A stretch of DNA of 64,000 bases from Patagioenas fasciata (taxonomy: Eukaryota; Chordata; Aves; Columbiformes; Columbidae), in NCBI RefSeq assembly GCF_037038585.1, contig NC_092521.1:52584398-52648397 (forward strand). The letters are read 5' to 3'. The position numbers and the translations under genes were made by a program. Below are positions 6,640 through 11,314 of this stretch, in pieces. Below the pieces are notes generated by a model that saw only the letters and a program-made list of their open reading frames with translations, was not told the DNA's origin and made no database searches. The first letter of the stretch is position 1. Every line of letters begins with the position of its first letter.

Positions 6640-6851
6640 TCAAGGCTTGTTTTCCAGTGGTTTCTTTCCCTGCCTCTCCAAGCTTTCTGTGGGCTGTGGA
6701 ACCTTTTCTGCTACCGCTGCCTTCCCATCAGTCTTCTTTGCTGCTTGCTGGTTGCTTTTTGTATTCTTTTCTATTTCCACAGGGGTCATTTCGTTTGGAT
6801 CAGGTGTCTCTTCTGTAGCAATAATGGCTTTTACATGTGGCTTAATAAAAT
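6640..6851 (-). CDS. MYOM1: Candidate alternative MYOM1 C-terminal exon B with stop
   Basis: A 212-nt open segment preceded by TTCTCCTAAATCAG. Its first two bases complete Asp with the single base left by exon A. It continues FIKPHVKAIIATEETPDPNE, then polar Lys/Gln/Ala/Pro-rich sequence ending EKVPQPTESLERQGKKPLEN and KP, with TGA at 6642-6640. The composition looks like real protein, low complexity, without Cys, Trp or a fold. With exon A it makes a 110-residue tail in place of the normal 25 residues. Confidence 0.7.
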
Positions 6852-7256
6852 CTGATTTAGGAGAAGTAATAAAAATTGTATTATATTTACTATGCTCAGC
6901 AACACAGAAGTATGTGGAGTAAGATTTTGCTTTCACGTTGGTTAGGACCTTATCATGTTCTTTTCCCCTTCACATACTCGTATAAAGAGATTCAGTATCA
7001 CAGATGAAGTCACTACTTTTTACAGAGCCAAAAGCAAGCCCAAGTCTTTATGGTCTCTAATTAAAAAGATTGAGGGGTAGAACCTGCAAAACATTTATGG
7101 ATGTAAATAATTGTTTCTCACATAAGTCATATCATTTACAGGATTACTCAAAAATGTCTAGGTTATTCATAACAGTAAGGCAAGAAAGGAAAGAAATGCA
7201 ATTAAATATTTGTTCTTGCCTTCAAAGCAGAAAGGGGAGGGGAATAAGAGCATAAA

Positions 7257-7282
7257 ATGTTCTGTCAGCAATGACAGAACAT
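7257..7282. repeat. 11-bp hairpin with GCAA loop
   Basis: ATGTTCTGTCA, loop GCAA, TGACAGAACAT on the plus strand. On the gene strand the loop is TTGC. It lies between candidate exons A and B. Confidence 0.8.
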
Positions 7283-8053
7283 GTATACACTCTGTATACA
7301 AACAAAAAATATTTAGGCAAAATATATAAAACAGATGTTCTGATAATGTTGGAAATTAAGCCTTATTTGGAGCTAAAATGCTGTACATGAGACAGTTGTG
7401 ATTGTGAATAATAAATTAATGTCTGAGTAGCAATTATATAGTAAGAGTCTAAAAGAACATTAAAAATCTGTAATATACAAGAATGCTGTATCACCTGAGA
7501 GCTTTTCATTTTCCACTCTTCCTCTAAATTGGACAAAAAGCAGTCACTTGTAATTTCAACTTCACCACTCAATATCAACATAAAACTAAGACAAAATAAC
7601 TGATTAATCTCAAATAGCTATACGACCAGGATTTTCTAAAACACTTTGGCATTTAGGGTCCCTTAATTAGGCACGGCCTTATTTTTGTTATGTGTCAAAT
7701 ATCTAGATGCTGAAATGAGTCTCACTTTGGAAAATCATGTCATCTGTGTATACCTACAGGCTTATGAGGTCTTTGCGTTGAGAAATGTGAAAGTATTTTT
7801 TGTGGCTTAAAAAGCTGTCATCAGCCAGCTAAGCCAAGGTGAGAACTCACAGCCCAGTGGAAAGGTGATTTAAAAGTGTTGATTTAAATCTCTTTCACTG
7901 AGGTGTAACCTGCTAATTCATACTTTGCATTTGTTGTTGATTAAGAACATACATACTGTAAATTTGTTTGGAACCTGAGAAATATTGATTGGCACAGACT
8001 ATTAACAATAATTTCATTCAAGTAGAAGACCATAAAGGTGAAAGTGCTCTTAC

Positions 8054-8174
8054 CTTTCTTTTCTGCTTCCTTCTGTTTGCTTGCCGTTGTTTTTTTCTTT
8101 TTAGATGCAGTTGCATTATTTTGATCGTGTCCTTGGACTGTGTCAGTCAGTCCTGACACAGAAATTACAATCAC
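8054..8174 (-). CDS. MYOM1: Candidate alternative MYOM1 C-terminal exon A
   Basis: A 121-nt open segment has a strong acceptor (pyrimidine-rich run ending TGCTTCAG) and a GTAAGA donor. In phase 0 it reads VIVISVSGLTDTVQGHDQNN, then ATASKKKKTTASKQKEAEKK. Joined to the internal donor at 11099 it gives SDVT-VIVISVSG in place of [12 protein letters not shown], so an alternating beta-strand pattern is kept. The rest is lysine-rich and probably disordered. It is an inferred exon; the alternative, a separate small gene starting at the ATG at 8249, is less likely because its apparent membrane segment is just the translated pyrimidine tract. Confidence 0.72.
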
Positions 8175-9137
8175 CTGAAGCAAAGCAAGAACAAAAAGCG
8201 CACAAGCGAGGAGTGTGGATGCATCACAAATTGAGTTTGAAACGACCATAACTAAATCCCTGGCAGCAATACATTTAGAAGCAGCTATTACCCTAACTTC
8301 CAGGGACACATATATCTTCTGAAGCAAAGAGAAGTAGAATCCAGCCTGTTATCTGGGAGATGCCCCACTTGTATTCCCTCTCAGTTCTGCCAAAAGGAGG
8401 GAGGCAGGAGGACAGATTTTTGAAGATAAAGTAGTAGAAACAAGCTGCTACCAAAATGTTTAAAAGTGTGCTCATGCTAAATAATTAACATCTGTTATCA
8501 GGTATTGCTAAGACCAAGTCATATAGTTTGCACTCTGGAGGATGGAAGAGAGATGGGACACTGTTGCTTTTAAGGTGTGTGTCCTGGGATCAAGGTGGAG
8601 TGACCTGCTTATTGTCCTTCAGTTTGCTTCATGTCACACTAAGCAAAATTATAAAATAATTTCATATTAATTCTTTACTCAGAAAGTTTGTGGTATCTCA
8701 AATCACAGATATTCTCATGATTATACTTTAAAATTTAAAACTTAAGCTGTTTTACTTTGTCTGATAGGTAGCTGTTGTGACTAAATAGTCTGAACTTTTA
8801 AAATAGCAGATATTGATTCATTAATGTACACAATTACACACTTAAACCTTAAAATTGCAATAATGTCAGCAGGTTTGATGCCTGAATTTTTACTATTTTA
8901 GGAGATAAAGCTGTGTGAACACACACACTTTATGGGAATTGCTGAAAACACATTAGTTTTACATAATTTCATGTTAAAAATCCCTGCAATGTGAAATTTA
9001 TTCTGTAAAATATATTATGTAAAAAATACATACACTAAATAAACTTAACACGTTCCATGAAGCTGGTGGAACTATTCATGTATAAAGTTAGGCACATACT
9101 AATGTGTTCTGGTAGGACATGAATCTGATCTAAATCT

Positions 9138-9214
9138 GTTTGGTTTTGTGGGATTTTTTGTTTTGTTTTTGGTTTTCTTTGTTTGTTTTTGGTTTTGTTT
9201 GTTTGTTTTTGTTT
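9138..9214. repeat. (GTTTT)n-like low-complexity tract
   Basis: T-rich sequence with regular G spacing, in the proposed intron between the internal donor at 11099 and exon A. Confidence 0.85.
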
Positions 9215-9682
9215 CAACAATTAGGATCATAATCCTTAGCCCTTTACAGAAACTGATTTTTAAAATATTTTAAAATTGCAAAAATCACCACTTTTGCCAT
9301 TGATAACTGTGTTGAATCTATTGTTACTTGAGCCATTAATAATTCCCTCATGCTTCCACTTCATCTTTAGCATGAGCTGACAGTAAATCTCAGCTGGCGA
9401 GGGTTTAAGTGAGCATTCACTGTGCAGCACTTGCTGGTGACATCCTCATAGAAATGTCGATACTGCAGCAAAATGAGCACCTGGGAAACAGCTCTATGTC
9501 TGCAGTTACAGCAGCTAAAAATGACAAGAGAAAGTATGTGAAAGGTGCACACAGATTATGCTTACACTGAAAATATCTACTTTAAGGCTTTAGATTTTGG
9601 TGTGAAGGATTGCGCTGTTGTGAGACAAGTCATGAAAAGAATTATAAATATGGCATGTTGCTCTACTAATTTGCAACTGGGC

Positions 9683-9735
9683 TGATATATCACAAGTATG
9701 TATCACATATATATCACATGTATATATCATATATT
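9683..9735. repeat. TATATCACA-type minisatellite, about 11-bp unit
   Basis: Four imperfect units of TATATCACA(A/T)G type in tandem. Confidence 0.6.
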
Positions 9736-10344
9736 TCTCCATCAGGATGGACATGTATGTACATTCTGTTGCTCTTCCTCAGCTAACAATAATCAGTGGT
9801 GCTGTAAAATAGCTGACACGGAGTTTTTAATCTATAAAAATGTGTTCAAAGATCTGGACAAAAGTTTTTTGTCTGAAACATTTTTGTCTGAAAAAAACTC
9901 ACATTTCTTTCTAAGTTCCAATGAAGATTCTTTTTGTAGCTATAAAAGATCTTAACAAAATGTGTTATTTCTGATCTCCAGTATTAAGTTTGGAAGAAAT
10001 ATTCTCAGTCTAACAAAATGCTTACCTAACACCCTTAAATCAAAATTCATGAGCAGGTCCATTGAACTGCATGAGATTATTCCTGTGTCTGAATTTGCAA
10101 AAATACCTTGCTGAGTTGAGATGTGATGCCGTGAAGGTCTGGACAGAAAGGCGTGAGGAGATGCCATTGTGGGTTTTGTCGTGAAGAGCAAAGTGAAGAT
10201 TAACAGGGATCTAAAGGGAAACTAGCGGTAATTACAGTGGTGAGATCATTAAGCTACTAAGATACTGTGCAGAACTACCAAAGCTGTGACTAGTAAAACA
10301 AGACACAGTGAAACAAGCTTGTGGAAGAAAAGAAGTGAATCCAG

Positions 10345-10350
10345 TTTATT
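10345..10350 (-). terminator. Candidate poly(A) signal AATAAA for the short MYOM1 transcript
   Basis: AATAAA on the minus strand about 670 nt past the TGA at 11021. It is followed within 50 nt by TG/T-rich sequence (around 10300-10315) that could be the downstream element. This would give a 3'UTR of roughly 0.7 kb. Confidence 0.5.
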
Positions 10351-10384
10351 TGTGAACAGAGAGGAGAGTTCGTACAGTTTTGCA

Positions 10385-10406
10385 GACACACACACACATA
10401 CACACT
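10385..10406. repeat. Short (CA)n microsatellite
   Basis: About eleven CA units with one interruption, in the distal 3'UTR close to the candidate poly(A) signal. Confidence 0.85.
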
Positions 10407-10577
10407 CATTAGTGTTCAGGCCTCCTAAGCCTGATTTTCATTTATGTTACAGTACTTTTACCCCAATTGGGCAGATTAAACAACATGTATGGATGTAAAT
10501 GACACCCATATTAAGGCCTCTCTAAATTAACACAGCAATACAAAGCGGCCTTAATGTAGACAAAATCAGCACTACAA

Positions 10578-10583
10578 TTTAAT
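10578..10583 (-). terminator. Alternative poly(A) hexamer ATTAAA
   Basis: ATTAAA on the minus strand about 440 nt past the normal stop, a second candidate for the short transcript's 3' end. I see no strong GU-rich element right after it. Confidence 0.3.
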
Positions 10584-11020
10584 TCTCTAACACGTTCCAT
10601 CTATGCTACTTTAACAAAGTTGGAACCAATCTAAACTTTTACTCAAAAAGGCCTCAATCATTTTTTATCTTTCCATCTACTATACTTCATAGATTACCTC
10701 CACTTAAATGATTCTTCACCCTTTCCATTTGTGTTTTATGGTCAAACCGCCCAGGAAGAGGGTCAAATGGTGGACCTGTGTTTACAGCCAGCATGCATTT
10801 GGCTTGGTTGAGGATGCTACCGCCAGGTTCTGTGAAGTTAGCAGTCAGAAAATATGAAAGGCCCTGTTTTCTCTGGCACAATTAAGTCTATTAGAAGCAA
10901 AACTGAAGCAAATGGAAAAACCCAAGGCTGCCTGCTAAAGCAGAAAGCCTTTTATACACACAGATTATGTCAGCCTATCATCCAAAATCTCCCCCGTACT
11001 TCTGTTGCCTAGTCTTAAAT

Positions 11021-11314
11021 TCACGCTTTAGTTTTCTTATTTTCTTTTGTTTTCTCTTGCTCAGACTCTCTCTCTTCCTCAGGTATGTACACACTTACAG
11101 TAACATCGCTGGTCTCTGTGCCATAACTGTTCTTCACCACAATGCTGTATTTCCCAGAGTCGTGTGTGGACACAGTAGAAATGGTAAAGCTGACATTTTT
11201 TCCATGTTCAAATCTCAGGATGCAATTAGCATCTGATACAAACGGTTTTTCATTCTTCAGCCATGACACCTCTGGAGTAGGATCTCCCCAGACAGTGCAA
11301 GAAAGATTAAGTGC
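11021..11314 (-). CDS. MYOM1: MYOM1 last constitutive exon, Ig My13 and normal C-terminus
   Basis: The 294-nt coding part encodes [20 protein letters not shown] (B-strand Cys and C-strand Trp), [20 protein letters not shown] (tyrosine corner) and the last strand TVSVY. It ends in the charged tail [12 protein letters not shown]...KKTKA and a TGA at 11023-11021. My13 is the antiparallel dimerisation domain in mammalian myomesin. An internal consensus donor GTAAGT lies right after the ACT codon at 11101-11099, so the exon may also be used in a 216-nt form (11314-11099) spliced to exons further downstream. Confidence 0.97.
   Translation of the reverse strand, partial: ALNLSCTVWGDPTPEVSWLKNEKPFVSDANCILRFEHGKNVSFTISTVSTHDSGKYSIVVKNSYGTETSDVTVSVYIPEEERESEQEKTKENKKTKA

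Follow-up and report, generated by a model that had tools for sequence, protein, structure and literature searches.

Can the last coding exon of the myomesin gene MYOM1 in the pigeon Patagioenas fasciata give rise to more than one protein end, and if so, which ends are these? The 3' part of the gene lies on the minus strand of the 64,000-nucleotide (nt) stretch analysed here (contig NC_092521.1, positions 52,584,398 to 52,648,397; hereafter the window, to which all coordinates refer). A sequence-only reading had proposed that splicing out of the last coding exon exchanges 25 C-terminal residues for 110, giving the isoform reported from chicken muscle or an avian relative of it. We propose that the two-exon tail and the short tail are very likely the known choice between the H and S C-termini of avian myomesin, built as a composite terminal exon. 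The isoform pair has been known since 1996; the long ending is probably real, not new.

The identity of the last known exon provides the anchor. On the minus strand, it starts in phase 0 at 11314 and closes with a TGA ending at 11021. Residues 1–79 of its 97 match PDB entries 2y25 (E 3.7e-34) and 2r15 (Myomesin-1, E 5.3e-31), the alignment reaching VSVFIPE, where the solved chains end, and Pfam assigns an I-set domain (73.2 bits). Of ten myomesin motifs, mostly human ones, eight occur farther upstream on this strand in an order consistent with MYOM1, and one upstream MYOM1 exon matches Pfam fn3. Because of the structure matches, the I-set match and the upstream MYOM1 exons on the same strand, exon 11314–11021 is, by sequence homology, the one encoding the My13 domain of MYOM1. 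The 3' end of the gene thus carries a terminal immunoglobulin (Ig) domain homologous to solved myomesin-1. In the short tail, seven of the 25 residues can be compared with the solved chains (VSVYIPE against VSVFIPE).

16627 to 16682, minus strand: MYOM1 exon preceding the My13 exon, ending in phase 0 (gene-finder chain, motif match, sequence)
11021 to 11314, minus strand: composite terminal exon with the My13 Ig domain, the 25-residue short (S-type) tail and TGA (PDB and Pfam matches, translation, stop)

The elements of the long-tail path follow from the sequence. Within the My13 exon, and in frame, lies GTT-ACT/GTAAGT. The acceptor ...TTGCTTCAG directly precedes 8174, and exon 8174–8054 is open up to its donor AAAG/GTAAGA; the acceptor ...CTAAATCAG directly precedes 6851, and exon 6851–6640 is open through to its TGA.

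11093 to 11099, minus strand: internal 5' splice site ACT/GTAAGT, phase 0, cut after 11099 (sequence, donor scoring; overlapped by GTGTG from 11094)
8054 to 8174, minus strand: first alternative exon (exon 1) of the long, H-type tail; 121 nt, VIVISVSGLTDTVQGHDQNNATASKKKKTTASKQKEAEKK and one further base (sequence, splice scores, gene finder, composition)
6640 to 6851, minus strand: second and terminal alternative exon (exon 2) of that tail; 212 nt, ending in TGA (sequence, splice scores, composition)

Conceptual splicing from 11099 to 8174 and from 8054 to 6851 swaps the 25-residue tail for 110 residues starting VIVISVSG, a net gain of 85 residues or about 9 kDa (9.06 kDa as computed with the S tail one Ala short). 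The sequence-only reading had named the same parts, namely a phase-0 GTAAGT donor in the last coding exon with its cut after 11099, a phase-0 acceptor at 8175 with an open 121-nt exon and GTAAGA donor, and a matching-phase acceptor at 6852 with an open 212-nt exon ending in TGA. All are present, the frame is exact at both alternative exons, and the exchange of 25 for 110 residues was reproduced. Its further argument, that four independent conditions agree, holds as far as the sites and phases go but overstates uniqueness, since the stretch allows eight such paths and the proposed one ranks fifth by score.

The I-set match covers residues 2–75 in both forms (70.8 bits for H, 73.2 bits for S). 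Because donor 11099 lies close to the end of My13, and the new exon supplies VIV in place of VSV, the dimerising Ig domain is, judging from the translation, probably kept in the H form. My13 dimerises via an antiparallel β-sheet, according to a review (PMC8900313).

That review also describes a C-terminal myomesin variant located after My13 in avian muscle, so far avian only: the H form, found in heart, is extended by about 90 residues, and the S form, found in skeletal muscle, resembles the mammalian tail and has about 20 residues, against 25 here (PMC8900313). The review traces the pair to Bantle et al. 1996 (J Biol Chem 271:19042). The predicted splicing gives a long tail after My13 in an H/S-like pair, 110 residues against 25, with a gain of 85 against about 90. 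Because gene, position and length fit, identification with the H/S pair is likely, and both earlier suggestions, that alternative C-termini are reported for chicken heart and skeletal myomesin and that this path is that isoform or an avian relative, find support in the review's description (PMC8900313). The chicken forms share with the present case the gene, a variant at the C-terminal end after My13, and a short and a long form differing by about 90 residues; no difference could be shown, the comparison being one of descriptions, not of tail sequences.

Scored with weight tables drawn up from general knowledge, acceptor 8174 comes 11th among 4459 AGs and donor 8054 10th among 3381 GTs. The internal donor, at 2.5, is below the median of 3.4 but within the range (0.4 to 6.8) of 18 donors of the gene-finder chain, which were themselves selected by the tables that scored them, and it lacks the usual G at the final exon base. 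A simple gene finder chose donor 11099 and exon 8174–8054 unprompted; it has no terminal-exon state, so that the S end was not selectable, and several of its exons were judged false. A path of acceptor, donor, acceptor and stop spanning at least 100 codons, under thresholds fixed after the scores were seen, was allowed by none of 200 dinucleotide shuffles; this test counted the presence of any path. Splice logic alone is therefore suggestive of the proposed path, not unique to it.

Base composition was brought in because the statistics of chance open frames and of splice paths were indecisive on their own. The test was picked after the exons had been seen, and its background omits 12 listed exonic entries, including both alternative exons, while other MYOM1 exons remain in it. 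Exon 6851–6640 has A 0.42 and T 0.14, which none of 59,687 overlapping 212-nt background stretches equalled. Exon 8174–8054 (A 0.45, T 0.16) was equalled by 227 of 60,779 overlapping 121-nt stretches, 84 of them open in the tested frame. The S-only part of the My13 exon is similar in composition to both (A 0.49, T 0.14). At the proposed edges the composition shifts, T being 0.38 (and A 0.20) in 8318–8175, 0.35 in 8053–6872 and 0.36 in 6639–6400. Composition is stronger support for the two-exon path than the splice signals are.

A number of results weigh against identifying this path as the H tail. By rank, the internal donor (131st of 3381 GTs) and acceptor 6851 (284th of 4459 AGs) are ordinary, and the latter is weak, its score of 2.1 being exceeded by 14 of the 17 acceptors taken as known. 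The codon score of exon 8174–8054 is near neutral (+0.7). Within the presumed intron, 9214–9065 is likewise A-rich and T-poor, and the eight listed upstream MYOM1 exons are less A-rich than the alternative exons. The 110-residue tail found no match in PDB at E up to 10. Pfam matches to the tail were all sub-threshold: UPF0239 (E 0.024) and DUF5480 (E 0.086) with the open frame surrounding exon 1, and RR_TM4-6 (E 0.14) with My13 plus tail; exon 2 alone gave none. As worded in the review, "about 90 residues" could mean the tail or the gain, and 110 and 85 are both inexact (PMC8900313). The identity of the H tail is drawn from gene, position and length.

The proposed path is, furthermore, only fifth by score (16.8; best 21.0) among the eight allowed in the real stretch. 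Seven of these use another in-frame, open acceptor, 8318, whose score of 7.9 is almost equal to that of 8174 (8.2). Were the true H tail to begin there, its first exon would measure 265 nt and the tail 158 residues. The 144 nt gained in this way have the high T and low A of intron, and their translation is hydrophobic, as from a pyrimidine tract; the resulting tail would exceed the S tail by 133 residues, farther from the "about 90" of the review (PMC8900313). We favour acceptor 8174 over 8318 because composition changes at the proposed exon edges and 8318–8175 looks intronic; with its intron-like addition and a tail too long for the review's description, acceptor 8318 was rejected as highly improbable.

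Chance open frames between splice-like sites, with no such isoform being made, would account for other features of the statistics. An open run as long as exon 2's, 69 codons or longer when read in the last exon's phase, follows 141 of the 4459 AGs, which is not rare; acceptor 6851 is weak; and 13 of 73 further stretches taken from the window (overlapping, on both strands, and possibly including true exons) allow some two-exon path under the same thresholds. The shuffles without a path, the composition of both exons, far from most of the background and in the second case from all of it, and the avian isoform of the same position and about the same size described in the review (PMC8900313) leave this explanation with very little credence. 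Equally hard to credit, and rejected, is a splice from the exon ending at 16627 directly to the alternative exons: the phase-0 intron before the My13 exon means that skipping My13 keeps the frame, but it would delete the dimerising domain, contradict the position after My13 given in the review (PMC8900313) and leave the internal GTAAGT donor without purpose.

The H/S choice fits a composite terminal exon, whose layout is found here as sequence: an internal donor (11099) upstream of a stop (11021) and of a polyadenylation signal (10350). A further AATAAA stands at 9002 on the minus strand.

10345 to 10350, minus strand: AATAAA, likely S-form polyadenylation signal by presumed function, 671 nt past the S stop
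5572 to 5583, minus strand: twin AATAAA (starts 5583 and 5577), possible long-form polyadenylation signal by presumed function, about 1.1 kb downstream of the H-form TGA

The AATAAA at 10350 is preceded within some tens of bases by a GT-rich run at 10387–10405 on the minus strand.

From this layout we infer a competition between splicing and polyadenylation. If cleavage and polyadenylation won, probably at the AATAAA at 10350, the messenger RNA would code for the short tail of 25 residues. Use of the internal donor, a putatively regulated site, would remove the S tail and its 3' untranslated region within the intron, and exons 8174–8054 and 6851–6640 would then add the 110-residue tail of the heart form, a tail that would extend from the My13 dimer in the middle of the M-band. 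In the abstract of the 1996 study, the ends are reportedly put down to alternative splicing at the gene's 3' end. The immunoglobulin M (IgM) heavy chain, with its secreted and membrane forms, is a composite terminal exon of this kind, having an internal 5' splice site in its terminal exon and a choice between polyadenylation and distal splicing. VEGFR-1 reportedly likewise sets polyadenylation in a composite terminal exon against splicing to distal exons. Unlike the products of these two genes, those of MYOM1 would both be sarcomeric and would differ in the tail only.

The H tail itself is basic (isoelectric point 9.3) and rich in Lys, Thr, Ala and Glu. In a charge–hydropathy plot it falls on the disordered side together with the S tail and the embryonic heart (EH) segment discussed below, and it is probably disordered. 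For exon 2, pattern searches gave 106 matches in a collection of non-vertebrate genome contigs and 15 in a collection of viral contigs, with no relative confirmed in either.

EH-myomesin offers a comparison within the same gene, its alternative segment also being predicted disordered. An open exon at about 41499–41825 on the minus strand, amid fibronectin-type exons, probably encodes this segment; an 83-residue part of it is predicted disordered and has no Pfam match. Unlike the C-terminal choice, the EH segment is, according to the review, an internal 96-residue insert between My6 and My7 that occurs in all species (PMC8900313).

How the choice might be regulated is a matter of speculation. 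The splicing factors RBM24 and RBM38 are reported to work via GUGUG motifs of intronic enhancers (PMC7397384), and myomesin splicing is affected by RBM20 (PMC7023976). A GTGTG starting at 11094 overlaps the internal donor at intron positions +5 to +9, inside codons of the S tail. Between 11314 and 6400, GTGTG occurs 14 times (6.2 expected from window density) and TGTGT 22 times (10.6 expected); eight of the 14 GTGTG come from a pair of GT runs, one near 10400 and one near 8926. There is no enrichment in this interval of TGCATG (1 against 2.1), CTCTCT (2 against 2.4), TTCTCT (2 against 3.3) or TGCTTG (0 against 1.9). Such counts are no proof of regulation, and the GTGTG at the donor is a lead only. 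That a heart-enriched factor bound there rescues donor 11099 from polyadenylation and that the H tail is, in addition, a cardiac docking arm which mammals lack is a combination we consider rather unlikely.

Two other features of the window lie on the plus strand. Two peptides encoded at 61126–61607, one starting at 61126 and the other at 61482, resemble a CR1 retrotransposon and may be remnants of one; up to E 0.01, Pfam had no match for either. A simple repeat at 27695–28243 has three open frames, each of which carries peptide repeats of the YSILF type.

The analysis places candidate exons of the avian heart-type myomesin tail on the sequence, with their coordinates, and suggests a composite terminal exon, one that keeps the My13 dimer domain, as the basis of the choice. 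With this layout, the heart/skeletal choice would be easy to test in a minigene.

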